64,000 nucleotides of DNA, from contig NZ_CP121684.1 of the NCBI RefSeq assembly GCF_029760935.1, forward strand, positions 248,001 through 312,000, written 5' to 3'. Each line of letters begins with the position of its first letter. Position 1 is the stretch's first letter. The position numbers and the translations under genes are program-made. Under the pieces are notes generated by a model. The model searched no databases. It saw only the letters and a list, made by a program, of their open reading frames with translations, and was not told where the DNA came from. The DNA comes from Lysinibacter sp. HNR (lineage in GTDB: Bacteria > Actinomycetota > Actinomycetes > Actinomycetales > Microbacteriaceae). Positions 12,733-64,000 of this stretch are shown piece after piece.

Positions 12733-12823
12733 TATCGAACTTTTTCTCCCGAAAGTGCTCTTTCAATTCGAGAAGAGGTAGGGGATTGGTTATGATAGTC
12801 GTTGTGCGTTCTATTGAACGTGT

Positions 12824-12912
12824 GGAGACGTCGCATAGTCAGGCCTAGTGCACCACCCTGCTAAGGTGGAGTCCTCGCAAGGGGACCGAGGGTTCAAATC
12901 CCTCCGTCTCCG
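12824..12912 (+). tRNA. tRNA-Ser (anticodon GCU), ICE insertion target
   Basis: Acceptor stem GGAGACG (12824-12830) pairs with CGTCTCC (12905-12911), discriminator G. The anticodon arm CCACC-CTGCTAA-GGTGG gives anticodon GCT. A long variable arm and the T-loop GTTCAAATC follow. CCA is not encoded. The gene is intact: the integrating element brought an identical 3' end, so the tRNA is restored at the left junction, and the displaced original end is found at 51493-51517. Confidence 0.95.
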
Positions 12913-12914
12913 CC
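12890..12914 (+). repeat. attL core (25 bp)
   Basis: The last part of the T-arm and acceptor of tRNA-Ser(GCU) plus two bases. Identical to 51493-51517. Strand exchange by the integrase would take place within it. Confidence 0.92.
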
Positions 12915-12919
12915 CATTT

Positions 12920-12998: not shown

Positions 12999-14138
12999 AT
13001 GGCTTCTATCAAACAGCGGTTCCTTAAGAGCGGGGAAAGCCGTTTTGATGTGATTTGGCGTGTCAAGGGTGACAGGGTACCGAAGAGCGTAACCCTCAAC
13101 GCCAAAGACTCAGCCATTACTATGAAGACGCTGCTCGAAGCTCATGACCATGACATCAACCGCGTGACGCGCTTGATCGCCCAGAGCAAAGTTTCCGGAC
13201 CTATGGTTGATGAGCTGGCGCAAGAGCATGTGGGGGCGCTTCTCCGTCCACAGGGATCCACTATCCGCGACTACGAAGCATACGTCAAAAACCACATCAG
13301 TAAGCATTTTGCGGGAATCCGTGCCGCATCCATTGTGCATGACGATATCGTGAGGTGGGTACGATACATGCAGGAGAAAGGGATGTCCCCAAAGACCATA
13401 GCCAACGTCCACGGTTTCCTCTCAAGTGTTTTTAAAACAGGGGTTCGTCAAAAGATTATCGAGACGAACCCTTGCCTCGGTATAGCCATGCCAGTGGATG
13501 ATGAGGCGGGCGACGCTGAAATGTTTCTCACCCTCGATGAATATAGGCTCATTCTTGAACACATTCCCGAGCGCTGGGTTCCTATGTATGAATTTTTGAT
13601 CGGCACGGGGGCGCGGTTTGGCGAGGCTTCGGCGCTGTCGGTTGACGATTTTACCCTTGATGCAGAGGTGGCCACCGTCCGGATTTCAAAAGCATGGAAA
13701 ACAGATCGCGACCGTCAGCCCTACATCGGATCACCTAAATACCAATCCCGCCGCACCGTCTCTTTGGAAGCCACGCTGACTCAAATAATCGTGCAGCACA
13801 TTAAGGAAAATAAGCTCGGCAGTGGGGATTATATATTTCAACGCCCCAATGGGCGACCAGTCGATAATCAAGCGTTCTCAAAGCAATGTTGGAAAAAGGC
13901 TGTATTCGCTGCCAGGAGTCATAAAGACGAGACTAGAAGGCTTCGGAAGAGCCCCACGCCTCATGACCTGCGACACACACACATCTCATGGCTACTGAGT
14001 GCAGGTGTGCCGCTTTTCGAGGTTTCGCGAAGGGTCGGGCATCGATCTACTGATTTTACGGCCAAAAAGTATGGTCATTTTATGCCCCAAGCTCAGCGGC
14101 GGGCGGCCGATGCTATGGCAGAGATAATGGGACGGTAG
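12999..14138 (+). CDS. int: Tyrosine recombinase/integrase of the ICE
   Basis: A 379-residue site-specific recombinase. The N-terminal SAM-like core-binding domain (about 65-150) is followed by the catalytic domain. The first catalytic Arg is in GTGARFGEASAL near residue 207; the HxxR box is HDLRHTHISWLL near residue 325; the second His is in RVGHRSTDFTAKKYGH and the nucleophile Tyr is in the same segment near residue 360. It lies 85 bp from attL and reads away from the tRNA, standard for actinobacterial ICEs. It catalyses integration into and excision from tRNA-Ser(GCU). Confidence 0.95.
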   Translation: MASIKQRFLKSGESRFDVIWRVKGDRVPKSVTLNAKDSAITMKTLLEAHDHDINRVTRLIAQSKVSGPMVDELAQEHVGALLRPQGSTIRDYEAYVKNHISKHFAGIRAASIVHDDIVRWVRYMQEKGMSPKTIANVHGFLSSVFKTGVRQKIIETNPCLGIAMPVDDEAGDAEMFLTLDEYRLILEHIPERWVPMYEFLIGTGARFGEASALSVDDFTLDAEVATVRISKAWKTDRDRQPYIGSPKYQSRRTVSLEATLTQIIVQHIKENKLGSGDYIFQRPNGRPVDNQAFSKQCWKKAVFAARSHKDETRRLRKSPTPHDLRHTHISWLLSAGVPLFEVSRRVGHRSTDFTAKKYGHFMPQAQRRAADAMAEIMGR

Positions 14139-28407: not shown

Positions 28408-28591
28408 CTTTTTCCTTTCTCTTAACTATTTCTTTTCATCAATACCTAACACCATAACAAACTTTTTCCGTTGCTTTCTTCACATCTTACATATCATCTA
28501 TGTGTATTTTTCTCGCTCTGCTACTTACACACCTCATGCACTACAGTGAGTGGTGGTCGAAAAACACGATTTTCTGCGTCATAATGAGTTC
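28408..28591. other. Possible oriT/promoter region before the relaxase
   Basis: An AT-rich gap between divergent genes, 184 bp. TrwC-family oriT sites are commonly just upstream of the relaxase gene. I see only short imperfect inverted repeats, so this is location-based. Confidence 0.3.
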
Positions 28592-31500
28592 ATGATGACT
28601 GTTCATAAGCTGACCGCCGGTACCGGTTATACGTACCTGACGGATCAGGTTGCGACCGGTGATTATCTCCGTGACCCTAACCGGGAACTTACCGATTATT
28701 ATGTAGTGGACGGTCAGCCTGCGGGACAATGGTTCGGTTCTGGTGCACAGATTCTAGGCCTTAAGGGTGAGGTTACTGAAGAGCAAATGGAAGCTCTTTT
28801 TGGGGAGGGACGTCACCCTAACGCCGATCAGCTCATTGCGGAAGCTATGGAGCAGGGGGCTACTCTGGAAGAAGCTATGCACGCTTCTCAGCTGGGGCGT
28901 GCGTATCCACAGTTAGAACAAACTGAGGATGATGGGTGGAACGACGCTATTAAAAAAGCATATGAAGAGTTCCGGGTAACGAATGATCGTAACCCGGATG
29001 CGGGTGTTGAACGGGATTTATTACGGTGGAATACAGCAGGAAAATTTTTAGCAGAAGGTATTTCTGATGTTGAACGTCACCGTTTTCTTGCGGAACGTGG
29101 CAGGGAACAACGCCAAGCTGTAGCTGGATTTGACCTGGTCTTTACACCGGCTAAAAGTGTTTCTGTTTTGTGGGCGATCGGGGACGAACACACCCAGAAA
29201 GCTATTAAAGAAGCTCATGATGCGGCCTGGCAGAAAACAATAGAGTGGGTAGAAAAAGAAGGATGTGTGACCCGTCGAGGTGCGAAAGGGATTGCTCAAG
29301 AATCTGCAGACGGGTTGACTGCAGCCGCATTTGAACACCATGATTCCCGTGCGGGAGATCCGAACCTGCACACGCATGTGGCTATCTCCGCGAAGGTTCG
29401 TGCGTCTTCTGACGGGCAGTGGAATAGCCTGGATGCGCGGGTGCTGTACTCACTCAATGTGGCTGCATCAGAGCAATACAACGCCCGAATAGAGCAGGAG
29501 ATCAGTAACCGTTTAGGACTGAAATTTGAAGATGTCTCCCGCGGTCGTGGAAAACGTGCGGTCCGCGAAATCGCGGGTGTTTCTTCTGAGTTAGTGCGTT
29601 CTTTTTCATCACGTCGGCAATCTATTGAAGCCGAATATGACCGACGACTGCAGTCCTATAGGGAACGTCACGGAACCTTGCCTTCTAAGAAGGTTCAGTA
29701 CGCAATGCGACAGGAAGCAACCCTGTCTACTCGTCAAGCAAAAGGTGAAATAAAACGGCTTTCTGAACAGCGTATCGGCTGGCAAAAACAGGCTCACAGT
29801 ATTTTAGGAAGCCGTAAAGCTGTTCGGGAAATGCTCGATGCTACCCGCACCGCTGAAAAAACCAGCACCTATTTTTATGAGGTGACTGACGGTCTCAGCG
29901 TTGATTTAGCAACCTGTGATTTGGGCCAGGTTGTCGAACACATTACTACGAGGATTGGAGAATCTCACACCACTTGGACGACGTGGACGGTGCAGGCAGA
30001 GTGCAGCCGTGTCGCACGTGGACTTGTGGCTGTACACGGTGGGAACGTAGCGGATGTCACCCAGGAACTCTCGGCTGCAGTGCATCGTACCGGATTGATT
30101 TCTGTGGAAGCCCCGGCAGCTAACCAGGTGCCGTATGTGATGCGTCGACGCTCCGGGGAGAGCATCTACACGATACAAGGCGGCGGGCGGTTCACCTCTC
30201 AAAAAGTGTTGGATAACGAAGACTATTTATTGAAAGCATCAACAACCGAGCGTTCGGTTGTTGTCGAGAAAACCCATCTGACATCCGCGATTAAACACTT
30301 TGAACATCGTCAGGGTCGAACCCTAAACGACGGGCAACGAGCCTTAGCTGAAAGCTTCGCCTGCAGCCCGAGAGCATTGGTTGCAGGGATTGGACCAGCT
30401 GGATCAGGTAAGACCTCTGCGATGGCTGCGATGGCTGCAGCTGTCACACACAGCGGTGGTAATGTCATTGCGTTGGCACCGTCTGTGGTGGCTGCTGATG
30501 TATTGGGGACTGACATTGGTGCTCCTGCACACACCCTCCATAAATTCTTACTCGTACATAACGAGTGGGAGCATATTCCAGCTGAGTATCGACTCACCCA
30601 GTCGTCGGTGATCCTGGTTGATGAGGCCGGTATGGCTGGCACCGGTCGCCTCGCAGATATCCAACGAGTCGCTGACCAGTATGGTGCCCGGGTGCGGCTG
30701 TTGGGAGATCCTGCCCAGTTATCATCGGTGGATGCTGGGGGAGCGTTACGTATGATTGCTAACCGTACCCCCACTGTCACGTTGACACAGGTTCACCGGT
30801 TCAAAGACCCTGCAGAAGCAAAAGCATCACTGCTGATTCGTGACGGTGTGCCGGAAGGTATCGCCTACTACGCTGACCGTGGACGACTTATCGGGGGAGC
30901 ACGTGCGGGCATGTTGGAAGAGATCTTTGCGAACTGGGAAACCGATACCCGCTACGGGAAAAACTCGCTGATGGTGGCCACCACAAACGAGGAGGTTGCC
31001 CAACTCAACAGCCAAGCTCGTATCGAAAGAATCAGTAATAAGCTCACTCACCCGGGCCGAAACGATATCCAGCTGCACGACGGAACTCTTGCCTCACGCG
31101 GTGATATTGTGGTGACCCGGTTCAACCAGTCCTCCCTGACCAACCCGACACACACAAAAACAGTACGCAACGGAGACCTCTGGCAGGTATTACGAACCCG
31201 AGCAGATGGGTCCATGCTGGTCAAAGATCCGGAGACTAAAGCAAAAATTGTTTTGCCGGCTGAGTACGTGGCTGAGCATGTGGAACTGGGATATGCCACT
31301 ACTGCGCATCGCACGCAGGGCATCACAGTGGACAGCGCACACGTTCTGGTGGACTCATCGATTGCCCGCGAAAACCTGTACGTGGCGCTGACCCGTGGTA
31401 AAGAAATGAACCGAATGTATGCGGTCACAGATTCCCCGGTGGCGTATACCTCCGAGTACGCACCCACCCCAGCATCAGCAGCACAAGACATTATCGAGCT

Positions 31501-32581
31501 TGCTCTACTACGTGAAAACGCAGAGAAAGCCGCTACCGACCATATACAGGACAATCTTAATTATGAGTATTCGCTCGAAAAACTTATTCCTGAGTATAAG
31601 GATGCGTATACCCGTCTGCTGGATCCAGAGCTTCGTGAACGTATGCAGCAGGCCATTCTCGACGGGATGACTCCTGAACGGGGCGCACGGGTGCTGGCGG
31701 ATGAATCCTGGCCCGCACTTGAACAACGACTTATGCTCCACGAAGCAAGCCTCACCACGGATGGGCAGGGAAATGTTGCAGAGCGTCTGGCAGACATAGT
31801 TCGAGAGGCCGAAGCCTCCCGGGACTTTAACGATGCCCGCAGCGCGGCCCAAATTATGCATTACCGTGTGGCGGAGCCCGATGTTACGCATCTGGATCGT
31901 TCGTTACCGCCGGGTATACCCATGCTCAGCGCTGAGCCTCTTCCCGGGCAGCATGCAGAGGTTCACGCGTGGCTGAGCCGACATGTCGACCTCATCCGCT
32001 CCGCTTATGCAGAGTTACGAGGAACGTCCGTTGTAGAGCCTCTCTCCGTCGCATCTGAAACGAAGGCGCACCATCAGGAGCAGCCGCAGCTGAAACCGCG
32101 TCGGCGAGTAGCCTTCGAAGAAGTCGCTACTGAATCCAGAACACGACCGACCATTCAAGCCGAACGGAACCTACCTGACCCAGAGCGTCGTGCACGTATA
32201 CAGCAGGCCATTCTCGACGGGATGACACCCGTACGCGGCGCACGGGTGCTGGCGGATGAATCCTGGCCTGCACTCGAACAACGACTCATCCAGCACGAAG
32301 CACAGCTTGCGAAAGACGGGCACGGAAATGTGGCCGAGCGTTTGGCACGCATGGTTCGTGACGCTGAATCGGCCCGAGACTTTGACGATGCCCGCAGCGC
32401 GGCCCAAATTATGCATTACCGGGTGGGAGACCCCGAACCTCGCATCCAAGAAAAACAACGTGAAGCTGCTGTGAATCGGACTGACCCGAGTCGTGCTGCA
32501 GAGCGTCGTGCACGCGAACAGGCACAAGCTCAGAACGCGCCGCGACAGCAACAACGACCCTCGTTCGGACGTGACCTCTAA
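28592..32581 (+). CDS. TrwC/MobF-family conjugative relaxase-helicase
   Basis: About 1329 residues; ATGs at 28592 and 28595 are both near a weak ribosome site. The N-terminal 300 residues are the HUH relaxase with HHDSRAGDPNLHTH (three metal-binding His). The early GYTYLTDQV segment carries candidate catalytic tyrosines. The helicase part has Walker A GPAGSGKTSAM near residue 600, ILVDEAGMAG (motif II), LLGDPAQLSSV, and YATTAHRTQGITVDSAHV plus LYVALTRG (motifs V and VI). It nicks oriT, stays on the 5' end and unwinds DNA for transfer. The C-terminus has a duplicated 86-residue unit. Confidence 0.93.
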   Translation: MMTVHKLTAGTGYTYLTDQVATGDYLRDPNRELTDYYVVDGQPAGQWFGSGAQILGLKGEVTEEQMEALFGEGRHPNADQLIAEAMEQGATLEEAMHASQLGRAYPQLEQTEDDGWNDAIKKAYEEFRVTNDRNPDAGVERDLLRWNTAGKFLAEGISDVERHRFLAERGREQRQAVAGFDLVFTPAKSVSVLWAIGDEHTQKAIKEAHDAAWQKTIEWVEKEGCVTRRGAKGIAQESADGLTAAAFEHHDSRAGDPNLHTHVAISAKVRASSDGQWNSLDARVLYSLNVAASEQYNARIEQEISNRLGLKFEDVSRGRGKRAVREIAGVSSELVRSFSSRRQSIEAEYDRRLQSYRERHGTLPSKKVQYAMRQEATLSTRQAKGEIKRLSEQRIGWQKQAHSILGSRKAVREMLDATRTAEKTSTYFYEVTDGLSVDLATCDLGQVVEHITTRIGESHTTWTTWTVQAECSRVARGLVAVHGGNVADVTQELSAAVHRTGLISVEAPAANQVPYVMRRRSGESIYTIQGGGRFTSQKVLDNEDYLLKASTTERSVVVEKTHLTSAIKHFEHRQGRTLNDGQRALAESFACSPRALVAGIGPAGSGKTSAMAAMAAAVTHSGGNVIALAPSVVAADVLGTDIGAPAHTLHKFLLVHNEWEHIPAEYRLTQSSVILVDEAGMAGTGRLADIQRVADQYGARVRLLGDPAQLSSVDAGGALRMIANRTPTVTLTQVHRFKDPAEAKASLLIRDGVPEGIAYYADRGRLIGGARAGMLEEIFANWETDTRYGKNSLMVATTNEEVAQLNSQARIERISNKLTHPGRNDIQLHDGTLASRGDIVVTRFNQSSLTNPTHTKTVRNGDLWQVLRTRADGSMLVKDPETKAKIVLPAEYVAEHVELGYATTAHRTQGITVDSAHVLVDSSIARENLYVALTRGKEMNRMYAVTDSPVAYTSEYAPTPASAAQDIIELALLRENAEKAATDHIQDNLNYEYSLEKLIPEYKDAYTRLLDPELRERMQQAILDGMTPERGARVLADESWPALEQRLMLHEASLTTDGQGNVAERLADIVREAEASRDFNDARSAAQIMHYRVAEPDVTHLDRSLPPGIPMLSAEPLPGQHAEVHAWLSRHVDLIRSAYAELRGTSVVEPLSVASETKAHHQEQPQLKPRRRVAFEEVATESRTRPTIQAERNLPDPERRARIQQAILDGMTPVRGARVLADESWPALEQRLIQHEAQLAKDGHGNVAERLARMVRDAESARDFDDARSAAQIMHYRVGDPEPRIQEKQREAAVNRTDPSRAAERRAREQAQAQNAPRQQQRPSFGRDL
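30240..30263. repeat. Perfect 10-bp hairpin inside the relaxase gene
   Basis: CAACAACCGA-GCGT-TCGGTTGTTG. Confidence 0.5.
31181..31207 (+). repeat. 27-bp repeat, copy 2 (within the relaxase)
   Basis: Matches 18937-18963 with one mismatch. Encodes WQVLRTRAD in the helicase part. Confidence 0.75.
31622..31879 (+). repeat. Relaxase C-terminal repeat, unit 1
   Basis: 86 codons, from DPELRERMQQAILDGMTP to QIMHYRVAEP. Highly similar in DNA and protein to 32177-32434. Confidence 0.85.
32177..32434 (+). repeat. Relaxase C-terminal repeat, unit 2
   Basis: 86 codons, from DPERRARIQQAILDGMTP to QIMHYRVGDP. Between the units is a Pro/Glu-rich spacer of about 100 residues. Confidence 0.85.
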
Positions 32582-51463: not shown

Positions 51464-51492
51464 TTCCCTAGTTGAGCCAGGGAGTAAATAGG

Positions 51493-51517
51493 GGTTCAAA
51501 TCCCTCCGTCTCCGCCA
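51493..51517 (+). repeat. attR core (25 bp), tRNA-Ser 3' fragment
   Basis: Identical to 12890-12914. Only the tRNA 3' end is present, so it is the displaced fragment. Confidence 0.92.
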
Positions 51518-53390: not shown

Positions 53391-55190
53391 TCAGCGTGCA
53401 ATACGGTAACGGTTGATCGTGAAACCTTGAGGGGAAACGACGAGAATTCGTAGTGTGTGTAGATCAAAACTGAGGCTTTGGGTGGTTTCGAACGATCCGT
53501 GTATATTGCTTACAGGCAGTGGGCCGTGTGAGAGTGCGTTAGAGCCGGTGGCTTTATCCTGTAGTGAGAGAGCCGCATATATGTTCTCAGTGGAGCCTTG
53601 TGGGAGGATCTCTATTTTTCCATCGGTCGTCACTGACTCTACATAGAACTTTACATTTGGTGGTGTTCCAACGGAAATATACCGTGGGCCGCAAGTGACA
53701 CAATTCCCAGCGACTACTGTTGGGCCTCCTGTATATGAAATTGTTCCCGCACTAACTGATAGAAGTGACCCGCATCGAACGCAGGTCTCGCCTGTTTTTA
53801 TTGGCTCAAGCATCGCCATTCCCTCGATAATGTCTTCTAGCCTGTAGTCAAGGAAAGGATGAAATGCTGACACAATTCGTGCGCTAGCAAGTTTGTTGAG
53901 TCGAGCAGCAAGTCTAAGCTGTTGCTGTCCCGTGCTATCTCCAGAAAGGACTCTTGCTCTGCGCCAGGAATGAAATAAGAGAAGCAAGTTGCGAAGTCCA
54001 TTACGAACTTCCTTCAGGAGGTGCTGTGCTCCATCGGTTTCTCGTGAGCGCTCATTCAGCGAATCTAGTATAAGAGAATATGTCTGAGACAGAGCCAGTG
54101 CGTCACCAAGAATCTTTTCTGCGTTTAACGCATCTTCTGTGATGTCTTTGAGGATGAGCTGGGAAGGAACTGCCTGCTCGATGAATACCGTTTTTTCCGT
54201 GGCTGCAACACTTCCTTGAGTGTGACCTTCAATCTCGTAGAATCTCCCCGGAACTGTGCTTTCTGGTAGTCGTCTTACATTATGGCGGTGAGTTCTCAGG
54301 TTTGCAGTGACGGGATCCCCGAGCAATAACCAGGGGCGCGCACCGCGAAAACGCGGTGCGGAAAGCGTGTTCAAAAAATTGCACGCGGCTATCAAACCTT
54401 CTTCGGAAGCGATCAGAAACGCTAAACGTACTTCGTCACTCGTCAGGGGGACGGTACGGTCGTTGCATATAACTGTACGTACGGAACTGCTCGCAATCAT
54501 AGACAGAGCGGCACTTGCCTGATTTGAATAGTGCTCCCTTCCTGCCGAAAAGCCGCTGCAAGAAAGAAAAAGTATTTCTTCAGCAGCAAGATCGCTAAAA
54601 TTTCTAAAGCGACCCCCTGCGTGTCCTGCACGCTTGCAGTAGTTCTGATTACAGTCAGGGAAAGTAGTAACTTCCGATTTTACCTGACCGCAAAGTACGG
54701 TATTTCGTAAGTTTGCATGAGCACCTTCGCCGTGTGCATGCAAGCAGAGAATGCGCCAAGCGCGAGTCAAATCTGAGTGGTTGATCTGTTGTGGGTAGGG
54801 TAGGGTCTGAGTTTGATAACCCTTTATCTGCACGATAGAGCCATAGAGTTCATCAAGCAGAAGATCGCCGGAGGAAGAGCTTTTTGGACTGACCTGACGA
54901 GCGAGAAAGGCTTTGAGCTCTTGGGGAGACTGTGCCGTAGCTATGCCGCAACTGCCTGTGAATGATGTTGTAAGGTGATTGAGAAAGGGTCTTTTAAATA
55001 AATCGGGTTTACCAATAATAAAGGCGTTATTTGTCTGATGTGAGGTTAGCTCGCTGAGTCTATATAATTTCCGTTCCTCAAAATTTTCTAAATATTTAAT
55101 AGCAATTTCCCAATAGTCTTTATCAGAATAGATTGGAACGTCGCGAGACTGGAGTGGCTTTGCTGCTTGAAGAGGAGAAGAGTTAGTCAT
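53391..55190 (-). CDS. Caspase/CHAT-like protein with zinc-binding Cys pairs
   Basis: 599 residues from ATG 55190, which overlaps the preceding stop by 8 bp. A candidate catalytic His is in LCLHAHGEGAH (H153) and a candidate Cys in LFLSCSGFSAG (C211), the His-Gly then Cys-Ser/Gly order of the caspase-fold clan CD (CHAT, gingipain, caspase). Between them is a Cys group (C168, C180, C185). A helical middle follows (about 320-450), then CVRCG and CVTCG near 475-505 (zinc ribbon), and a beta-rich C-terminus. As the last gene of the biosynthetic operon it could mature, guard or respond to the product. It could also be a defence-type protease. The role is unknown; fold assignment is from motifs only. 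Confidence 0.6.
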   Translation of the reverse strand: MTNSSPLQAAKPLQSRDVPIYSDKDYWEIAIKYLENFEERKLYRLSELTSHQTNNAFIIGKPDLFKRPFLNHLTTSFTGSCGIATAQSPQELKAFLARQVSPKSSSSGDLLLDELYGSIVQIKGYQTQTLPYPQQINHSDLTRAWRILCLHAHGEGAHANLRNTVLCGQVKSEVTTFPDCNQNYCKRAGHAGGRFRNFSDLAAEEILFLSCSGFSAGREHYSNQASAALSMIASSSVRTVICNDRTVPLTSDEVRLAFLIASEEGLIAACNFLNTLSAPRFRGARPWLLLGDPVTANLRTHRHNVRRLPESTVPGRFYEIEGHTQGSVAATEKTVFIEQAVPSQLILKDITEDALNAEKILGDALALSQTYSLILDSLNERSRETDGAQHLLKEVRNGLRNLLLLFHSWRRARVLSGDSTGQQQLRLAARLNKLASARIVSAFHPFLDYRLEDIIEGMAMLEPIKTGETCVRCGSLLSVSAGTISYTGGPTVVAGNCVTCGPRYISVGTPPNVKFYVESVTTDGKIEILPQGSTENIYAALSLQDKATGSNALSHGPLPVSNIHGSFETTQSLSFDLHTLRILVVSPQGFTINRYRIAR

Positions 55191-55824
55191 GATCGTCTGA
55201 GCTGAGGTAGGTGATGGTAATAGACTTCCTACGAAATTGTCCTGTTCCTGGTGGCTCCACAGCGTGCCACGAATTCTCGGTCGGAGCGAAAAGTACTGAA
55301 CTTCGGTAGGTCGGTTCAATTCGTTTGACAGTCGTAGCAGCATCGGCTGACCGGAGCAACGCGAGATGCCCACCATGTTCAGGAACCCAGTCAGGCGACA
55401 GGTACAAAATTTGAGTGAGCTTCTTTTCGGGTTTGTCAACATGGGGTGAGAGCCAATCACCCTCACCATAACTCCACGCATCCACCCGCACCACAAGTGA
55501 TTTCACATCAGCGTCAAAAGCTGTAGATAACGCAGAGCGATAGTGAGGGGAATCGACCGCATCAAGAAGCGCGGATGTCGCTGGAGCATCGGCTGTTTCG
55601 TTCCGTTGTAAACGTGTAGTTCGGAAGCTATAAGTCTTATCACCGTTGTCGCGTCGAGCGCGTTCCAAGCGGCTGTCGAATACTTCGCGAACTAGTTGTG
55701 ATGCGAATTGATCGGGGAGCACTTCCATAACCTGTCTGTGTGGCCACGGATCCCGAGAAAGGTTCGTGTTTTGGATCTGTGTAACCATCCAGTCAACGAG
55801 GGAATCAAAAGCGGTTGTAGACAT
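55183..55824 (-). CDS. 2-oxoglutarate/Fe(II) oxygenase A
   Basis: 213 residues. The jelly-roll iron site is H128-x-D130 (LSPHVDKPEKK) and H187 (ENSWHAVEP), with an Arg/Lys around residue 197 (QFRRKSITI) for 2-oxoglutarate. The middle YLSPDWVPEHGGHLALL matches its operon paralogue. Resembles prolyl-4-hydroxylase-like enzymes. In nikkomycin/polyoxin two such enzymes (NikI and NikM type) oxidise the octosyl acid and related intermediates, so a similar task on a C-nucleoside is inferred. Confidence 0.8.
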   Translation of the reverse strand: MSTTAFDSLVDWMVTQIQNTNLSRDPWPHRQVMEVLPDQFASQLVREVFDSRLERARRDNGDKTYSFRTTRLQRNETADAPATSALLDAVDSPHYRSALSTAFDADVKSLVVRVDAWSYGEGDWLSPHVDKPEKKLTQILYLSPDWVPEHGGHLALLRSADAATTVKRIEPTYRSSVLFAPTENSWHAVEPPGTGQFRRKSITITYLSSDDHD

Positions 55825-56588
55825 TATGTGCCGTTCCTCCTTGGCTCGTTAGAAAACTCACATACTTCAAGAACTCGTGCAAGCAGGGTATCGGCGTTGT
55901 TAACCTGCCCTAAAAAGTAAGGGTGCTCAGGAGCAACCGCGCGGGGGATGTCATCGTGTCTGATCATCTGTAACGCCCAGTAACCGTGGCGAAGTGGACC
56001 AAGTATGTCTGGTTCGATCCTGTCTCCAACAAACAAGGTTTGATTTGGTTCGGCACCTATTTGCTTAAGTTCACGATACATGCGCTCGTTAGGTTTGAGT
56101 GCTCCAACTCTTGAGGAAGAAATGATGCCGATGGGAGCCGGAATAGAAGTGCCAATTTTATTTACAAACTTTTCGATCACGTCTGGTGAGGAATTTGAGC
56201 ATACCGCCCATTTAAATCCAAGCTGTGTAAGCGTGTAAATCATTGGTATTACATCGTTATAGAGGGTAACGTTGCGATGTCGTTCGGCTTTTTCACATAG
56301 CTTTAGTATGGAACGTTGGTTTTCAATTTTTGCAATATTCATTGTTGTAATTATGCGGTTGCGTCGTAAGGTCCAAAAAGTCTCATCGTTGAGAGCTTGT
56401 GGTGCGAGTTCTTCGCCATCGGTTCCATCAATAAGTGCGATGAGCTCAGCCAGGCATAGTTTTTCTTGAATTGGTGATCGAGCCCAGACCACGTGTGCAG
56501 CACTGGGAACTGAATTCGAAGACCAATGACACAGAGTCTGGAACAGATCAAAAACAATCACTTCAAAGGCTGGCATGCGCACTCTCAT
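55824..56588 (-). CDS. HAD-superfamily hydrolase-like protein
   Basis: 254 residues. Motif I is VFDLFQTLCHW: nucleophile D14, but Phe in place of the second Asp that serves as acid/base in phosphatases. Motif II CSNSS near residue 131; Lys in KPNERMYREL; motif III FVGDRIEPDI near residue 195. An alpha-helical C1 cap lies between I and II. Members of the FDLFGTL type include phosphatases and dehalogenases. Coupled to both neighbours by overlapping stop/start codons. May remove a phosphate or act on an unusual bond. Confidence 0.8.
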   Translation of the reverse strand: MRVRMPAFEVIVFDLFQTLCHWSSNSVPSAAHVVWARSPIQEKLCLAELIALIDGTDGEELAPQALNDETFWTLRRNRIITTMNIAKIENQRSILKLCEKAERHRNVTLYNDVIPMIYTLTQLGFKWAVCSNSSPDVIEKFVNKIGTSIPAPIGIISSSRVGALKPNERMYRELKQIGAEPNQTLFVGDRIEPDILGPLRHGYWALQMIRHDDIPRAVAPEHPYFLGQVNNADTLLARVLEVCEFSNEPRRNGT

Positions 56589-57178
56589 CCCACATCACGG
56601 TAAGCATGTACTAAAACGGTGGTGCGATAGGACGGGCACAAATCAGTGATCGGAGCCACCTCATGCCAGGAGTCTAGGGAACGTGCAAAAGCAACCCCTG
56701 TTCCTTGAAAGGGGTAAGCTTTGCAGGTTGGCTTCACTGTGTCTGCTGACTCGTATAGACGAAGATCTCCACCCCAACTCTCTCGCCAGTCAGGGCTGAA
56801 ATAGTAGATAGCTGAAAATACTTTATCGGGACCGTCTGTGTGGCGAGACATCCAGTTTGATGCGCCGTATGCGGCCAAGCGAACTTCAACCTCGGTGATC
56901 TCGTTCGAGTCCACTCCAAGGTCATTTGCTATGCGTTGGGTATTGGTGTCGTCCCCTAAAATACGTACAAGAGATGCCCAATCTTCCGGTAGTTGGGTAG
57001 ATAAGCCTGACGATTTTCGATACGCTTCGAGCATCCGTGTGCTGTACGTCTTGTCGCTTCCATTGTTCCTTGATGTGTGATCGAGCAGGTCTACTGGAAA
57101 AGACGAGAGTGAGCTTGGCGGCTCGAAAGCTATATGTATGTGGGCGAATGGGTCGGTGTGTAGGGTATGTGAGATCAT
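56585..57178 (-). CDS. 2-oxoglutarate/Fe(II) oxygenase B
   Basis: 197 residues from ATG 57178, which overlaps the aminotransferase stop (ATGA); an upstream ATG at 57268 would lie inside that gene. Iron site H113-x-D115 (SRHTDGPDK) and H172 (LDSWHEVAP); R185 for 2-oxoglutarate. Shares YYFSPDWRESWGGDLRL with oxygenase A, so the two are related. Predicted to hydroxylate or further oxidise the sugar-derived part of the nucleoside. Confidence 0.8.
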   Translation of the reverse strand: MISHTLHTDPFAHIHIAFEPPSSLSSFPVDLLDHTSRNNGSDKTYSTRMLEAYRKSSGLSTQLPEDWASLVRILGDDTNTQRIANDLGVDSNEITEVEVRLAAYGASNWMSRHTDGPDKVFSAIYYFSPDWRESWGGDLRLYESADTVKPTCKAYPFQGTGVAFARSLDSWHEVAPITDLCPSYRTTVLVHAYRDVG

Positions 57179-58242
57179 TTTTGTTCCTTCCACGCTCCTG
57201 TCAGCTCTGAGATAAGCTGTCCCATGATCTGATCTAAAGCAATTGAAAACCGAATGCTTGTGTGCCAATTGAGTGCAGTATTGACTTTTGTTCGAATGCC
57301 TAGTTGTAATAGGTGTTGTGCGATACGTTCGGCCTTTTCTTGTGTAAGAAATACGTGAAGGAAATTAGCTTCGGACGTGGGAACTTCCATACCGATACTG
57401 AGGAGTTCTTGGCGGACCTTGTCGCGTTCTTGTGTGATGTCATTCCAGATTGGCTCGTATTGCGAGTAAGACGCGAAACACTGCCTCATCAAATCCAGTG
57501 CATGCTGACTCACTCCATTTTCGATACCCGCCACAGCTAAGTGCGATATGTTTTCGGGTGCTCCCGTCACTATTGCAGCACGTGCTGCTGCAAGGCCAAA
57601 AGCTTTCGAGGATGTAAATACTGTATTCAGTGACGACATAATCTGCTTGAGATCGTGTCGAGGAGCAAAGAACGGAGCATAACAAAGGTCGACGACAAGT
57701 TCTGAACCTTGCTCCCGACACCGTGCGTCTAGTGCAAAGAGTTCGTCGACTGAGAAGCTCCCGTGCGCTACAGGAGCATTCGGCCAGGTCACCGCTACGA
57801 TTGTTTGAGCTCCTATTCGCGAGACAAGATGCTCAAAGTCCTTTTCGCGTTCACCAGAAATCACAACCGTGTCAAAAGGAAGGTTGTAGAGGGTTGCGGC
57901 TTGTTTCCAGGCTGGATACGCAGGGGATAGGTACAGTAACTTTTTAAAACCACGTGACTGTGCAACCCCGACGATTGCCCGTATGGCCGCATCGGATCCG
58001 GGTGAGAAGATTAACTGCTCCTCGGGTCTGCCGATAAAAGCTGCAATCTCAGTGGCGGCCTGGGAGTGAACGGGATAAAAGTTAAGGGGAGTAACTCGGG
58101 GGTTAAAGAGCGTGTGTAAATTTGAAAGCTGTGGATGTTGAAGCTCGTTAGAGCCAAGATTTATGCCCGACCTCACACCGCGGCGTTCAAAAGATAAAAG
58201 CTCGAAATCTGGAATGGTGTAAGAGGGTGAGTGTGGATTCAA
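57175..58242 (-). CDS. PLP-dependent aminotransferase (HisC/NikK-like)
   Basis: 355 residues, fold type I, class I/II. The PLP lysine is K213 in FTSSKAFGLAAARA, the ring-contact Asp is in LVVDLCYAPF (D185), Asn in WPNAPVAHG (N155), and the carboxylate-binding Arg in SIRFSIA near the C-terminus. Length matches histidinol-phosphate aminotransferase relatives. In the nikkomycin/polyoxin pathway NikK/PolI, of this family, adds the amino group that gives aminohexuronic acid. The same reaction on a C-nucleoside aldehyde is my inference. Confidence 0.85.
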   Translation of the reverse strand: MNPHSPSYTIPDFELLSFERRGVRSGINLGSNELQHPQLSNLHTLFNPRVTPLNFYPVHSQAATEIAAFIGRPEEQLIFSPGSDAAIRAIVGVAQSRGFKKLLYLSPAYPAWKQAATLYNLPFDTVVISGEREKDFEHLVSRIGAQTIVAVTWPNAPVAHGSFSVDELFALDARCREQGSELVVDLCYAPFFAPRHDLKQIMSSLNTVFTSSKAFGLAAARAAIVTGAPENISHLAVAGIENGVSQHALDLMRQCFASYSQYEPIWNDITQERDKVRQELLSIGMEVPTSEANFLHVFLTQEKAERIAQHLLQLGIRTKVNTALNWHTSIRFSIALDQIMGQLISELTGAWKEQK

Positions 58243-59567
58243 ACTCGTTCCATCACATTCTGAGGGATTTTATTCATGACGGAAGTGACGTGGGGATCTA
58301 CACCGAAGAAAAACTCGTACCACGGGTATTGTTTATTACTACGCTCATTGCTGGAGAAACCCAAAAGCTGTCGATTAAATCGCCATAGATCCTCTTTGTG
58401 CTGACATCTTCGTAACTCATCCAGGTCGGCATATACAGTAGGGCGTACTCGTGCGCCCACTTCTTGTGCTGCTTTGACTGTCGCACGGGTTCCTTCAAGT
58501 GTGGTTCCAGGGAGCCCCACCATGATAAAAAAGTTTAGCTCGATGCCAAACTCATGAGCGTTGTTATTGAGCTCTTCGAAGCGCATAATCTCAGTCCGTT
58601 TTTTCCTGGGAAGAGTTTCCAAGCCGCCGGGTTCAAGAGTCTCTAACCCTACGCTTATCCTGACGCAGCCTGACTCAGCCATTCTTTTCATAAGCTCCGC
58701 ATCCAGATGGGGGATGGCGGTGGCGCACTTCCAGGGAAGATTACAGGATGAGCGTTCCATCTCCGCACAGAACTCCAGCGTCCATTTCCTATCAAAGGTG
58801 AAAGTGGGTGCATAGAACGAGACGTAGTCGAACGGTCTAGTTTCTACGGCTGTTTCGATGTAGTCAACTATTCTTTTGGCGCTCAAGCGGCGATCACGCA
58901 AACCCTGTACGGTTGGTACTTCACAAAAAGAGCAGTTGATGGGGCAACCTCGCCCCACGGGGACAACTAATTCGCGTCGCTCGGGGATTCCGCAAAACTT
59001 ATTTTGATCCCTTGAATACAATCGATCATAGTCATGATATGGAATTTCAGACACATCAGGTAGCGGCCAGGTTCCGGGCAAAAACCTACGTCCCGCAGAA
59101 GCCTTGATCCAATGAGTGCCGTCTCGAACATCTATACCGACTAATTGTGTGGGTGATTGCTCACTCAGCATCCAAGAGACATACTCGTAAAACCCTAGCT
59201 CAACATCGCCACCAGTGACGATACCGTCAAGGTCGAACTGTCGAAATACGAGGGGAGCTTCCATGCTGAGCCGACCTCCCGTGATGACGTGGCAACCGGG
59301 CGCGAGCGAGCGAATATACTCAATAAAACGATCCAGATTATCGACCGTGTCAAAATCATTAATGATAATTACGAGATCGGGAGAGCTTTGATAGATCTGT
59401 TCTCCGATCTCTTTCCACGTCAGATTAAGCAAGCCAAACTCTGCGGAAGTAAGATCAATTTCTGGAAATTCTGATCGAAGCATTTCGGATGTCGTGTAAA
59501 CAGTCAAGTGGTGACCCGCATTAAAGTAGCTTGGTACGTGTGGAGGCCAGACGACCAGGACTTTCAT
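58239..59567 (-). CDS. Radical SAM enzyme with B12-binding-type N-domain (NikJ/PolH-like)
   Basis: 442 residues. The N-terminal 150 residues look like a B12-binding Rossmann domain (VVWPPHVPSYF, VITGGRLSMEAP) but lack a clear DxHxxG cobalamin motif. The radical SAM cluster is CPINCSFC (C208, C212, C215), followed by YAPTFTFDRKW and ISVGLETLEPG. In octosyl acid synthesis NikJ/PolH uses a 5'-deoxyadenosyl radical to close the second ring of 3'-enolpyruvyl-UMP. Together with the enolpyruvyl transferase in this cluster the same bicyclic closure is expected here. Confidence 0.82.
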   Translation of the reverse strand: MKVLVVWPPHVPSYFNAGHHLTVYTTSEMLRSEFPEIDLTSAEFGLLNLTWKEIGEQIYQSSPDLVIIINDFDTVDNLDRFIEYIRSLAPGCHVITGGRLSMEAPLVFRQFDLDGIVTGGDVELGFYEYVSWMLSEQSPTQLVGIDVRDGTHWIKASAGRRFLPGTWPLPDVSEIPYHDYDRLYSRDQNKFCGIPERRELVVPVGRGCPINCSFCEVPTVQGLRDRRLSAKRIVDYIETAVETRPFDYVSFYAPTFTFDRKWTLEFCAEMERSSCNLPWKCATAIPHLDAELMKRMAESGCVRISVGLETLEPGGLETLPRKKRTEIMRFEELNNNAHEFGIELNFFIMVGLPGTTLEGTRATVKAAQEVGARVRPTVYADLDELRRCQHKEDLWRFNRQLLGFSSNERSNKQYPWYEFFFGVDPHVTSVMNKIPQNVMERV

Positions 59568-60160
59568 ATTTTGTCCTCCAATATATATGTAATAAATGCT
59601 TTTTTAGCTAGGTTATTTCGGGCCTGGAAGTCTAGATAGGTTTCATCGCGCCTGGTAAGGATTTCTTCGAGCCAATCTGGCCTCGTGTCGAGCAGGGAAA
59701 ACGTTTCTTGTGCTTCTCGTACCCGCACGGATAGAGGCGCCCCAAAGCCTTTGAGTAGATTGTCTATGACTATGCCTGTGCGGTCTCTTCCAAGCTGGCA
59801 CATAATAACAAGATCGAAACCCTCAAGAAGGAGTTCCCGAGCCTTTAAGTAAACCGGTTCAGAAAGAACTTTTAACTGTTGGTAGTGAGATAAAAACACA
59901 TTTTCATCTCGATGAATCCTTGGAATTGCAGCGAAATCAGGGTCGTTTAGAGAGTACCGAAGTGTTTGACAGTTTGTTCGCTTGTGTCTGATTTCGTTTG
60001 ATTTTCGTAGGTCGATAATATAGCCAAGAAACGGCAGTGGAAGCGTAGGCAAGCTATCAGTTCCTGCAGCTGCGCGGTACAGGACCCCTTGGTGATCGTT
60101 TGCTCTGGTTCCGCTTATGGGTATTTTTCTAGCGAATTTCAAAGTATCTAAAGTTTTCAC
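59564..60160 (-). CDS. Tyrosine-phosphatase-fold phosphatase (NikL/PolJ-like)
   Basis: 198 residues. Active-site loop CQLGRDRTG (C121, R127) is the CX5R signature of the cysteine-based phosphatase family, of the Y_phosphatase3 type. A conserved N-terminal GVLYRAAAGTDSL segment also fits. In nikkomycin and polyoxin clusters a phosphatase of this fold removes the 5'-phosphate after ring closure. Coupled to the radical SAM and TruD-like genes by ATGA overlaps. Confidence 0.82.
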   Translation of the reverse strand: MKTLDTLKFARKIPISGTRANDHQGVLYRAAAGTDSLPTLPLPFLGYIIDLRKSNEIRHKRTNCQTLRYSLNDPDFAAIPRIHRDENVFLSHYQQLKVLSEPVYLKARELLLEGFDLVIMCQLGRDRTGIVIDNLLKGFGAPLSVRVREAQETFSLLDTRPDWLEEILTRRDETYLDFQARNNLAKKAFITYILEDKI

Positions 60161-61245
60161 TGCGCTTTAGCCCCAATGACGCGAAGAAACTGTGCAATTG
60201 CCATAGTTGCGTATGAGCCAGAGGGCAAAAAGAAACTTATCGTTGCGCAGTATTTTCCAGGATGCAGGGAATCTTCTTTGGGGGCTTCAAGATGGAAAAG
60301 CGTGTTTACACGTACGGCTCGTTCTTGATGAAGCGCAGTTGGTGAACTATTGACTAAACGTACGGTTGTGTAGGGGGAGGCCAGGGGTAAAGACGCAAAA
60401 TTATCTTCCTGTGGGAAGCTGTATTCAATACCGTCCCTGTATACTTTTTCAACAGGTGATATCTCCCGTAATCTGTCTGCGACTGATGAGTTCCAGAGGA
60501 AAGAATAATGTGCAGACCGATAGAAACTAGTAATACGTTGGTCCAGGGAGTCAAAAAAGTCAACAGCAGTTCCTGTATGCTGCTGTGCCGCCAGAGCTTC
60601 CGCTGATCCCGAGGCTGCTACTAACGGGAGAGCATTATCAAACTCTTTGTCTTGAAGATATTTTCCGATTAAATGTGTTTGTGATGGTCCCGTTGGAACA
60701 CCAAATCTTTGAGTATCGTAATAATTAATAAATTCAAAATGACGCTTTGATTCTGTTGGCCAGTAGGCCAAGTCGCTCTCGGCGATGTTTCGAACCGTAA
60801 TGTTAAAACTGTTGCCAAAGAGGTCTCCTACGCTAATTGGCTCGCGGCTCGTTCCTATAAAGGTCACCCGAAGATACTTATCCTGGTCAGTGAAAAGCTC
60901 ATCTTTGTGTAGTGTGGAGGTCTCGGGAATACTGAAATACTGATGGGTGATTGCGTTTTCATCTTTGAGTCCGGCATACCCAATTTTTTCACGACCTATA
61001 TTGAGGGCATCGGCGATAAACCCTATCGCCTGGAAGGTGGTCAAATTACGTTTTGATACAAGGAAAATGTTGTAGCGAGAATCAAGGCTGCTGATTTGTT
61101 TGTTGGCGCTTGTTCTAGATTCCAGATGAAACCGTGGCGTTTCATGCACAACAAAATCTTCAGGTGTTGTTTTCAGTGCGGCGTCTGCAAGGGGTGGAGT
61201 GAATTCTGGTGGTATTCCAATAATTGAATCAGGAGTAGGACTCAC
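60157..61245 (-). CDS. TruD-like pseudouridine synthase (MalD/PumJ-like)
   Basis: 362 residues from a GTG. The start has PEDFVVHE; the catalytic motif GYAGLKDENAITHQ contains Asp95; and NYYDTQRFG is the second TruD signature. These are uncommon in actinobacterial core genomes, where tRNA uses other pseudouridine synthases. In malayamycin MalD makes 5'-pseudouridine monophosphate from UMP, and PumJ does so for pseudouridimycin. It would provide the C-C glycosidic bond here. First gene of the minus-strand operon. Confidence 0.88.
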   Translation of the reverse strand: MSPTPDSIIGIPPEFTPPLADAALKTTPEDFVVHETPRFHLESRTSANKQISSLDSRYNIFLVSKRNLTTFQAIGFIADALNIGREKIGYAGLKDENAITHQYFSIPETSTLHKDELFTDQDKYLRVTFIGTSREPISVGDLFGNSFNITVRNIAESDLAYWPTESKRHFEFINYYDTQRFGVPTGPSQTHLIGKYLQDKEFDNALPLVAASGSAEALAAQQHTGTAVDFFDSLDQRITSFYRSAHYSFLWNSSVADRLREISPVEKVYRDGIEYSFPQEDNFASLPLASPYTTVRLVNSSPTALHQERAVRVNTLFHLEAPKEDSLHPGKYCATISFFLPSGSYATMAIAQFLRVIGAKAQ

Positions 61246-61343
61246 GTTATATACCTATCGTCGTTGATGGTTCTGGCTTAGGAACTCACCTTAATCTGGT
61301 TAAGATTTTGCACACGTATGCCCAGAGGTTTTAGACTTACACA
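61246..61343. promoter_or_regulatory. Divergent promoter of the biosynthetic cluster
   Basis: Plus side: TTGCAC (61308-61313), 18-base spacer, TAGACT (61332-61337), and ATG at 61344, so a leaderless mRNA is likely. A palindrome CTTAA-TCTGG-TTAAG lies at 61290-61304. Minus side: TATATAA just before the GTG of the truD-like gene. One operator could control both operons. Confidence 0.6.
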
Positions 61344-62678
61344 ATGCCATCATATAATATCAAAGGGGGAAAACCTTTGATAGGGGCTGTCCAACCAGAA
61401 GGCTTTAAACATGCTTTTGTAACCGTTCTTGCGGCTTCGTTCCTTGGTCAGCATGACGTTACAATCGCTGGGGCTCCAACGACACAGCTAGAAGCAAGTA
61501 CTCTTTTAACGTTGCTCGAGGCTGTTGGGGCATCTGTTTCAGTAAAAGATGATAAGGTCTCGCTTGGAATTAATCAGGTCTCAGGGAGTTTCCCTCAACC
61601 CTTATACCAATCAATCCACGGTAGTCTCTATCTCGTCCCTGGTCTGCTCGCACACACGGGAGAAGTGACAATGCACCCCGCAGGTGGGTGCGCCATAGGT
61701 AATGGTGTTGCCGGAGGGCGTCCAATGAGTCACTATTTTGAAGTGTTAAGGCGATATGGTGCAATAGTGGACGTAACGACTGGCTCAGTCCGGATGCCTG
61801 TCGGAGGTCTTCGTGGCACCGTAATTGACCTGGTTGATTTCGTAGACGATCCCCAACTTATGACCGGGCCTTTGTATTCAGGTGCAACTAAGTTTGCGAT
61901 CCTTTGCGCAGCGATCTCTAGTGGTGTTTCAATAATTCGGAGCGCGTATCCTAAAGCTGACGTGACAGAGATGGTTCGAACGCTTCAACTTTTAGGGGCA
62001 GATATCGAAATAGATAGTGAGCAGGATATCATGCGCATCCAATCAGGCAGTCTGCTTTCCGAGCGCCGTAATGTTGTCCATCATCTCATTTCAGATCCGA
62101 TGCAGACGCTTACTTGGCTAGTAGCTGGTGTTATGACGGGAGGGGATGTTCATATTGATGCTCATGATGTCCGCATTCTCAGACAGAGCATGCAGGCAGA
62201 ATGTGAAGCTCTCACGAGAATGGGCTTTGAGATCCACGAGTCAGCTAGAAGTCTCTCGATTGCCAATGGTGCTCGACCCATTAAAGGGATTGACCTTAAG
62301 ATTCACTCACGTGGCGTGTTTAGTGATGCGCAACCAATTTTTGCGTTACTTATGACAAAACTGTCTGGCTTTTCGACCATTATCGACACAGTTTGGCGGC
62401 GACGTTATGAGTATGTGCAAGGCCTTAACGCATTGGGGGGTAGTATACGAAAGACTTCATCCGGCATTCGTATTGCTGGAGGGTACCCTCCGTCCATATC
62501 AGATGTTAGGGTCACTGGAACTGATTTGAGAGCTGCTGTCTCATTGGTTCTTGCTGGAACAGCTATTAACGGTACTACTATGGTTTATGGAGTTGAGCAT
62601 CTTGATCGGGGTTTTACGAATTTTGCATCGGTCCTTGAATCTTTAGGTGGTTCGGTGACTCGAGAGGGCTTTGAGTGA
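61344..62678 (+). CDS. MurA/NikO/MalO-like enolpyruvyl transferase
   Basis: 444 residues. Two-domain inside-out barrel with six repeats as in MurA/EPSP synthase. The Cys loop AGGCAIGNGVAGGRP has C116, the counterpart of MurA Cys115. The N-terminal GGKPLIGAVQPEGFKH fits the family start, with Gly/Gln in place of MurA SGAKN. NikO/MalO add phosphoenolpyruvate to the 3'-OH of UMP or pseudouridine-MP rather than UDP-GlcNAc. Context rather than motif decides the substrate; a second genomic MurA is to be expected elsewhere. ATGA overlap with the kinase gene. Confidence 0.82.
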   Translation: MPSYNIKGGKPLIGAVQPEGFKHAFVTVLAASFLGQHDVTIAGAPTTQLEASTLLTLLEAVGASVSVKDDKVSLGINQVSGSFPQPLYQSIHGSLYLVPGLLAHTGEVTMHPAGGCAIGNGVAGGRPMSHYFEVLRRYGAIVDVTTGSVRMPVGGLRGTVIDLVDFVDDPQLMTGPLYSGATKFAILCAAISSGVSIIRSAYPKADVTEMVRTLQLLGADIEIDSEQDIMRIQSGSLLSERRNVVHHLISDPMQTLTWLVAGVMTGGDVHIDAHDVRILRQSMQAECEALTRMGFEIHESARSLSIANGARPIKGIDLKIHSRGVFSDAQPIFALLMTKLSGFSTIIDTVWRRRYEYVQGLNALGGSIRKTSSGIRIAGGYPPSISDVRVTGTDLRAAVSLVLAGTAINGTTMVYGVEHLDRGFTNFASVLESLGGSVTREGFE

Positions 62679-63217
62679 AAGTTCGAAGAATTCTTGTACT
62701 CGGCTCTCCAGGGGTTGGGAAAACTACTATCTCCCGCCTGCTATCAAATAGATTAAGAATTCCGTACATTTCCCTTGATGATGAGTATTGGCAAGCTGAT
62801 TGGGAGCGTCCATCATGCCAGGAGTGGAGCAAAACGCTTAAGGCCATTACAGAGCGTTCGTCGTGGGTTATAGATGGAAATCATGCACGAACCCTTACAG
62901 TACGTGCAAGCAGGGCGGAAGTCGCAGTAATTGTTTCAGCACCGGCGCTGCTTTGCTGTTACCGAATATTGTATCGAGTAGTCCGTATACGCCGAGGGGA
63001 ATATAGCTTGGCACCCAAACGTGTCGCTGCTCAATTAGAGGTCGGTGTAAAAACCTCAGCAAGTAAAGACCTTTTTGAGCTCCTTGTGCTTGCTTTGCGT
63101 TTCCAGAAGAAGACTCTTCCGGAGGTTCTTGGTGTGCTTGCTGACAGTGGAGTTCGAATTGTGCGGGTAACTTATAAGACTAGTGATCAGGAGATAGAGC
63201 GTTTATTACGGGGATAA
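62675..63217 (+). CDS. P-loop nucleotide/nucleoside kinase-like protein
   Basis: 180 residues. Walker A VLGSPGVGKTTIS at 8-20, then DDEYW and WVIDGNHART, the pattern of adenylate-kinase-like 'topology modulation' (FlaR) proteins. Pseudouridimycin clusters also have an adenylate kinase-like gene. It might phosphorylate pseudouridine or a pathway nucleoside; also possible is a self-protection role by phosphorylating the product. Confidence 0.75.
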   Translation: MKVRRILVLGSPGVGKTTISRLLSNRLRIPYISLDDEYWQADWERPSCQEWSKTLKAITERSSWVIDGNHARTLTVRASRAEVAVIVSAPALLCCYRILYRVVRIRRGEYSLAPKRVAAQLEVGVKTSASKDLFELLVLALRFQKKTLPEVLGVLADSGVRIVRVTYKTSDQEIERLLRG

Positions 63218-63218
63218 T

Positions 63219-64000
63219 CTACAGGGTTTTGGGCCGCATTCGTAGAAGAGCTGATCCTAGAGTGCAGAGAACTGCAACTTCTCCGATTGCAGCAACCCAT
63301 AGCGCTGCTGGAATACCAAGCTTTTCCCCGATAAAAGAGATAATCAGGGCGCCGAGCGGCAGGCTGCTCATTATTGCGACTCGGGCGCTTGCGTTTACCT
63401 TTCCCAGAGCTCCCGGAGGCGTGAGTTTTTGTCGAAGGGTTACGAGGGCAATGTTGATGATCGGGGTTCCATAGCCGATCAAAACTTGTGCGGCAAGCAG
63501 AGTAGCCAGTGGGATGCTGGTCCAAGCTGAGAGTGCCAGCAGAATCGTTCCCAAAGCCATTGATGTAAGCCCGAGAGCGACACACTGACCCTCGTGAAAT
63601 TTTTTAGACCAATATGGGTAGGTTGCTGCTCCACAGAATGCACCAACACCTAAAAGTGCGACGCTAATACCAAGTATTGTGGGATTATAACCCAGCGTGC
63701 GTGTCACAAAAAGCACAAAGAGCGCGCTTGCTCCTGCTACAAAAATATTCAAGAATGCCCCGGATGTCACAACTAGTCGAATCTGGCGTGATTGCCAGAC
63801 GAGTCGAAGTCCGGATAGTACGTCTTCAAAGATTTTTGGATTAGGTGAGTCTTTTTCCGTAGGAGGTTGGGGGAGGATCCTGTAGCGCCCCGGTAAAAAG
63901 AGCAGTGCGACAAGGGCGATCAAAAAGGTGACTGAATTTATTGAAATGAGGTATTCAGGTTTGTAGGCGGTGGCGAGTACTCCTCCAAGAAGTGGGCCTG
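63219..64000 (-). CDS. MFS exporter, 5' part beyond the window
   Basis: The visible 260 residues hold six or more helices with the loop patterns of the DHA3/MefA-type major facilitator family (LGYNPTILGISVALLGVGAF, YGTPIINIALVTLRQ). The reading frame continues through 64000 on the minus strand, so the N-terminal half lies outside. It ends 1 bp from the convergent kinase gene. Likely exports the nucleoside product or gives self-resistance. Confidence 0.8.
   Translation of the reverse strand, partial: GPLLGGVLATAYKPEYLISINSVTFLIALVALLFLPGRYRILPQPPTEKDSPNPKIFEDVLSGLRLVWQSRQIRLVVTSGAFLNIFVAGASALFVLFVTRTLGYNPTILGISVALLGVGAFCGAATYPYWSKKFHEGQCVALGLTSMALGTILLALSAWTSIPLATLLAAQVLIGYGTPIINIALVTLRQKLTPPGALGKVNASARVAIMSSLPLGALIISFIGEKLGIPAALWVAAIGEVAVLCTLGSALLRMRPKTL

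Follow-up and report, generated by a model that had tools for sequence, protein, structure and literature searches.

In malayamycin biosynthesis, 5'-PsiMP is reportedly supplied chiefly by MalD, a TruD-like enzyme named as such in the original malayamycin abstract. Malayamycin combines the octosyl core of polyoxin with a TruD-like step (PMC8724604, PMC5365060), and MalO acts almost exclusively on 5'-PsiMP according to a review that gives the name MalD to a carbamoyltransferase (PMC8724604). In the pseudouridimycin pathway, deletion of pumJ lowers production to about a tenth, and feeding of pseudouridine rescues it (PMC7955054). Where the PumJ substrate comes from, and in what phosphorylation state, is described as an open question (PMC10127198); PumH has been proposed to supply PumJ with an unusual phosphorylated uridine (PMC7835738), and several orders of steps are allowed, with the phosphorylated intermediate left open (PMC7955054). 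Earlier mining found PumJ-type enzymes in unrelated microbes (cited in PMC7955054). Enzymes of this type are already known from two antibiotic pathways; what is new here is the host and a sequence signature.

The window that we analyzed is a 64,000-nucleotide stretch of the Lysinibacter sp. HNR chromosome. Its minus-strand open reading frame (ORF) at 60157 to 61245 is intact, starts with GTG, and encodes a 362-amino-acid protein that matches the Pfam TruD family with 159.5 bits (1.5e-46; cut-off, 27 bits). Catalytic residues Lys94 and Asp95 lie within GLKDENAITHQ and align with Lys79 and Asp80 of Escherichia coli TruD, while residues 174 to 182 read NYYDTQRFG; a preliminary description of this DNA had pointed to both motifs, and both are present in the intact frame. 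Asn145, Phe147, Gln179, and Arg180 are kept together with Lys94 and Asp95, and the catalytic alignment columns are invariant. An AlphaFold model of the protein has the TruD fold (pLDDT, 85.5; pTM, 0.83), with Z scores of 22.3 against E. coli TruD and 22.0 against human PUS7. By its fold and its Lys-Asp, Asn-x-Phe, and NY..QRFG motifs, the product belongs to the TruD pseudouridine synthase superfamily.

The TruD-like gene heads a seven-gene operon that runs leftward, with overlaps of 1 to 4 bases between the ends of successive genes when plausible start codons are used. It is followed on the minus strand by genes for a MalL/NikL/PolJ-like phosphatase of the tyrosine phosphatase type (CX5R; 59564 to 60160; motif CQLGRDR), a NikJ/PolH/MalJ-like radical SAM enzyme (58239 to 59567; motif CPINCSFC; 43 to 47% identical to the enzymes of octosyl-type clusters), a MalK/NikK-like class I/II PLP aminotransferase (57175 to 58242), a 2-oxoglutarate (2OG)/Fe(II) oxygenase (A; 56585 to 57178; HxD...H), a HAD-family phosphatase (55824 to 56588), and a second 2OG/Fe(II) oxygenase (B; 55183 to 55824; HxD...H). 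Translation of the TruD-like gene is coupled to that of the phosphatase and radical SAM genes, and no RNA genes were seen adjoining the TruD-like gene. The layout thus bears out the earlier claim that this gene heads a biosynthetic operon and does not stand with RNA genes. At the end of the operon lies a minus-strand candidate ORF of about 600 amino acids (53391 to 55190), possibly a novel tailoring enzyme, for which no Pfam, NCBIfam, PADLOC, or plasmid match was found and whose single-sequence structure model (pLDDT, 34.5) was too low in confidence to use. HG and SC motifs and an LLGDP stretch give this ORF a CHAT/caspase-like resemblance by eye only.

On the other side of the TruD-like gene, a 98-bp divergent intergenic region (61246 to 61343) leads to a plus-strand gene for a MurA/EPSP-type enolpyruvyl transferase (61344 to 62678; MalO/NikO-like; catalytic-Cys motif PAGGCAIG). 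The transferase is 28% identical to the one other MurA relative in the genome; since the latter is presumably the housekeeping enzyme, the transferase of the cluster would be an extra, divergent copy. An adenylate-kinase-like P-loop kinase of the PolQ2/MalE/PumH kind is encoded next (62675 to 63217, plus strand; motif GSPGVGKT), with 36 to 42% identity to the kinases of other octosyl-type clusters and about 30% identity to pseudouridimycin-type kinases. A predicted MFS exporter gene on the minus strand (63219 to 64000) is cut by the end of the window and is complete as L009:11220-12512; a gene for a DUF6065 protein (PF19541; L009:12509-13246, minus strand) adjoins it and still falls within the att-flanked segment. 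The cluster therefore holds a complete octosyl core—enolpyruvyl transferase, radical SAM enzyme, phosphatase, two 2OG oxygenases, and aminotransferase—along with the TruD-like enzyme, and it probably makes a malayamycin-like C-nucleoside antibiotic.

Compared by published description, the malayamycin A cluster (mal; Streptomyces malaysiensis/S. chromofuscus) resembles this one in its TruD-like synthase and in MalO, MalJ, MalL, MalM, MalI, and MalK (PMC8724604), and its kinase MalE (PMC7955054) is likewise matched by the kinase found here. However, the matched genes of the 15.2-kb segment carrying the cluster include neither a carbamoyltransferase nor an O-methyltransferase gene, which suggests a product other than malayamycin A. 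Pseudouridimycin clusters of Streptomyces (PumJ/SapC) share a TruD-like enzyme of the same clade with KDE and NYYDTQRFG motifs, a PumH-type kinase, and an MFS exporter, but their TruDs are only 35 to 37% identical to the Lysinibacter protein, and their GMC oxidase, class III aminotransferase, ATP-grasp ligases, and amidinotransferase have no counterparts in this cluster.

TruD was described beforehand as rare in actinobacterial core genomes, and this holds in every sample that we searched. Searches for TruD gave one positive genome each among 296 of the phylum, 287 of the order (profile A1), and 299 of the family; these samples overlap, so that the counts are not to be added, and the sole match in each was the genome studied here. 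In a large-genome genus that is probably Streptomyces, 3 of 392 genomes had a TruD, in all cases within a pseudouridimycin-type cluster with a GMC oxidase, a class III aminotransferase, an ATP-grasp ligase, a guanidino-group enzyme, and an acyl-CoA-dehydrogenase-like flavoenzyme nearby. A kinase related to that of the Lysinibacter cluster was also found near these TruDs. A search of GTDB contigs for close relatives of the TruD-like protein returned distant TruDs only.

The preliminary description named grouping with tRNA TruDs as an outcome that would count against its reading; the phylogeny was run, and the protein did not group with them. Against TIGR00094, the curated NCBI equivalog model for tRNA TruD, the protein scored 126.1 bits, under the cut-off of 172.2 bits; other members of its clade scored 103 to 131 bits, compared to 357 bits for E. 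coli TruD and 325 and 286 bits for the TruDs of loci L064 and L002. We built an unrooted maximum likelihood tree of 47 TruD/Pus7 proteins, consisting of nine pathway-clade sequences and 38 others, in which the Pus7 sequences were partial and stitched from PDB alignment blocks. The pathway clade separated from bacterial, archaeal, and eukaryotic TruD/Pus7 proteins, with its nine members on one side of a branch with support of 97/95 (100/99 without three long sequences); pseudouridimycin TruDs, the TruD of a Mesorhizobium plasmid, and other cluster TruDs were the partners of the Lysinibacter protein. Placement of the protein among bacterial tRNA TruDs was rejected by the AU test (p-AU = 0.0004). 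Grouping it with all nonpathway TruDs was not rejected (P = 0.157); because the tree has no root, this result says only that the protein could be the earliest branch of the pathway clade, and it lends no support to membership among tRNA enzymes. Judged by its TIGR00094 score and its position outside the bacterial clade, the protein does not appear to be an orthologue of tRNA TruD; its grouping and its operon linkage to octosyl genes indicate that it belongs to the PumJ-type pathway clade. In 249 pseudomonadote genomes, a profile built from six clade members gave three full-length matches that ranked far above 58 further ones, nearly all of which covered mostly the N-terminal half. One genome (G1223) had both a pathway-clade TruD and a TruD of the other kind, the second of which is ordinary looking.

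Related gene sets recur elsewhere. On a Mesorhizobium loti plasmid, identities to the Lysinibacter proteins were 35% for TruD, 43% for the radical SAM enzyme, 28% for the aminotransferase, 31% for an oxygenase, 37% for the kinase, and 35 to 38% for the enolpyruvyl transferase, which is split over two frames. This transferase (L011:16166-17580) is annotated as two hypothetical proteins, which may reflect a frameshift or a sequencing error. The same gene set was found in a pseudomonadote genome (G998; TruD, 30%; radical SAM, 43%; kinase, 39%), and a TruD with an oxygenase lay at a contig end in another genome (G1010). The association of TruD with octosyl genes was thus found in three separate lineages. 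Loci in 4 of the 392 Streptomyces-type genomes (L036 to L039) encode a radical SAM enzyme with 43 to 47% identity together with a transferase, an aminotransferase, and oxygenases; their transferase, radical SAM enzyme, phosphatase, oxygenases, and aminotransferase are homologous to those of the nikkomycin/polyoxin octosyl pathway (NikO, NikJ/PolH, NikL/PolJ, NikI, and NikK). Unlike the Lysinibacter genome, these four have no TruD anywhere, which is consistent with N-nucleoside pathways of the nikkomycin/polyoxin kind. Two of these loci, L036 and L037 (genomes G679 and G399), are octosyl-type clusters with a PolQ2-like kinase and without TruD and are distinct from the nikkomycin-like L038 and L039. 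In trees of the enolpyruvyl transferase and the radical SAM enzyme, TruD-bearing clusters did not form one clade and a PsiMP-specific transferase clade was not resolved; given this topology, we set these trees aside as a test of coevolution with TruD.

E. coli TruD, archaeal TruD, and eukaryotic Pus7 share with the pathway clade a common fold, the catalytic Asp/Lys pair, and the Asn-Phe and QRFG motifs. They differ at two positions that we read as a possible acidic switch: the Lys or Arg after the catalytic Asp is Glu in the clade, and YFG is YYD, with Gly replaced by Asp. KD-E after the catalytic Asp plus NYYD was found in 9 of 9 clade members and in 0 of the 38 other TruD/Pus7 proteins; NFFD or NYFD occurred in 2 of the 38, but with a basic residue after KD. 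The position of E. coli Lys81, typically Lys or Arg in bacterial TruDs, is Glu in all nine. Other basic residues that are conserved elsewhere have disappeared from the clade, as has part of the TRUD insertion. Among positions retained in 31 to 34 of 35 bacterial TruDs, a set to which Lys/Arg81 also belongs, Arg116, Lys120, and Arg298 (E. coli numbering) were each kept in one of the nine clade members and Arg199 in none, and the TRUD insertion domain segment with invariant Gly261 was absent from all nine. The pathway clade may therefore have given up contacts with RNA, and the two new acids may hold the free ribose hydroxyls. Net charge and basic content were considered as a mark of RNA versus nucleotide substrates and rejected, since the clade mean of -2.7 and a mean of about 0 for the others came with wide overlap.

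Hosts of the pathway clade include actinobacteria, rhizobia, other pseudomonadotes, a cyanobacterium, and a gammaproteobacterium-like genome that also has its own TruD. Two of the nine members, on a Gloeothece plasmid (L012) and in G1223 (L072), had no recognized C-nucleoside pathway alongside. The Gloeothece gene (L012:7974-9032) lies near genes for an ABC transporter, a glycosyltransferase, a histidine phosphatase, and a sulfotransferase, and it is possible that this locus represents a new C-nucleoside pathway. The G1223 gene (L072:9893-10846) is a solo pathway-clade TruD beside an FMN reductase and an AAA_33 kinase, with no antibiotic genes seen. We tentatively suggest, with a little less than even confidence, that this cross-phylum clade shifted from RNA modification to the isomerization of free uridine nucleotides, a shift that would be marked by the acidic switch and the lost RNA-backbone contacts, and that the signature might be used to find C-nucleoside pathways.

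Directly repeated copies of a tRNA 3' end flank the cluster and indicate that it is cargo of an integrative element. The tRNA-Ser(GCT) gene lies at 12823 to 12916, and its 3' end is repeated at two further sites: an att-like copy at 51492 to 51516 (plus strand; exact match, 51493 to 51515) at the left edge of the 15.2-kb cluster segment and a right copy at chromosome positions 314702 to 314724 (L009:14703-14725), 2.7 kb past the window. The 23-mer has three exact copies in 2.9 Mb, compared to 0 for a reversed control pattern. A tyrosine integrase gene (12999 to 14138) follows the tRNA-Ser gene, and a TrwC-type relaxase gene (28550 to 32581) lies further in; together with the att-like repeats, these make the stretch from 12.9 to 51.5 kb look like an integrative conjugative element (ICE). 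The cluster segment, in which no integrase was seen, has a GC content of 0.486 versus 0.575 in the chromosome to its left and resembles a cis-mobilizable element in tandem with the ICE. Sequence to the right of the third tRNA-Ser copy resembles the left arm of the ICE. Farther right of the island, L009:18747-19406 has eight overlapping 198-nt reference matches at 66-nt spacing within a leucine-rich-repeat-like surface protein.

In the explanation that we consider probable, the TruD-like protein is a pseudouridine synthase of the PumJ/malayamycin type, dedicated to its pathway, and opens octosyl-type C-nucleoside synthesis. Recruitment to the pathway is well supported because the octosyl core adjoins the gene, TruDs of the same clade recur in such clusters, and TruD is nearly absent from the phylum. 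The fold, catalytic residues, clade, signature, operon, and gene content were observed, whereas every reaction of the pathway, and above all the use of free UMP, is inferred. The enzyme would cleave the N-C glycosidic bond in a free uridine nucleotide (UMP being the most likely), turn the uracil, and rejoin it through C5 by the usual Asp95 chemistry, giving 5'-PsiMP. In the next steps, the divergent enolpyruvyl transferase would attach an enolpyruvyl group at the 3'-OH, and the radical SAM enzyme would form the octosyl ring. Completion of a malayamycin-like nucleoside would fall to the kinase, phosphatases, oxygenases, and aminotransferase, and its export to the MFS protein. The neighboring genes and the clade both speak for a small-molecule pathway; as to the substrate, conversion of free UMP to 5'-PsiMP as the first step is the best inference, and on balance we favor it.

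An ordinary tRNA Psi13 synthase that lies beside the cluster by chance is strongly disfavored. Relatives are automatically annotated as "tRNA pseudouridine(13) synthase TruD," and host tRNA-Glu carries U13; a missing target was considered as an argument against a tRNA role and rejected on that account, and such a role is not to be dismissed for lack of a target. Nevertheless, the protein scores below the tRNA TruD cut-off and falls outside the bacterial tRNA clade with the p-AU value given above, its gene is coupled to phosphatase and radical SAM genes in an association that spans three lineages, and TruD is absent from the sampled relatives. Every TruD/Pus7 enzyme known to us acts on RNA, and the protein studied here retains the fold and most of the core, so that a dedicated pathway enzyme might instead make pseudouridine in tRNA or other RNA, with turnover releasing PsiMP for the pathway. 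The U13 of host tRNA-Glu would again be available, and the approximately 10% of product still made by producers without PumJ (PMC7955054) implies that RNA-derived pseudouridine can feed such a pathway. The loss across the clade of basic residues found in RNA-acting TruDs and the missing Gly261 segment argue against an RNA substrate, which we regard as quite improbable.

It is also unlikely that the enzyme isomerizes another small molecule, such as uridine, UDP/UTP, a 2'-phosphorylated uridine, 3'-enolpyruvyl-UMP, or octosyl acid. The PolQ2/PumH-type kinase in the cluster would suit such a substrate, given the idea that PumH supplies PumJ (PMC7835738) and the freedom left in step order and phosphorylated intermediate (PMC7955054). 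However, the preference of MalO for 5'-PsiMP (PMC8724604) places isomerization before enolpyruvyl transfer, at least in malayamycin, and the presence of a PolQ2-type kinase in the TruD-less clusters L036 and L037 indicates that the kinase need not serve TruD.

Formation of a free pseudouridine nucleotide by a TruD relative is an unsettled point of C-nucleoside biosynthesis, and the Lysinibacter cluster offers a divergent pathway TruD outside Streptomyces lineages, whose next step, enolpyruvyl transfer, can be coupled in one tube. The att repeats suggest a route by which such clusters move between bacteria. KDE plus NYYD splits pathway enzymes from the RNA enzymes that are given the same name by automatic annotation; with this signature, the free-nucleotide question can be tested by swapping residues, and genomes can be mined for C-nucleosides with greater precision.
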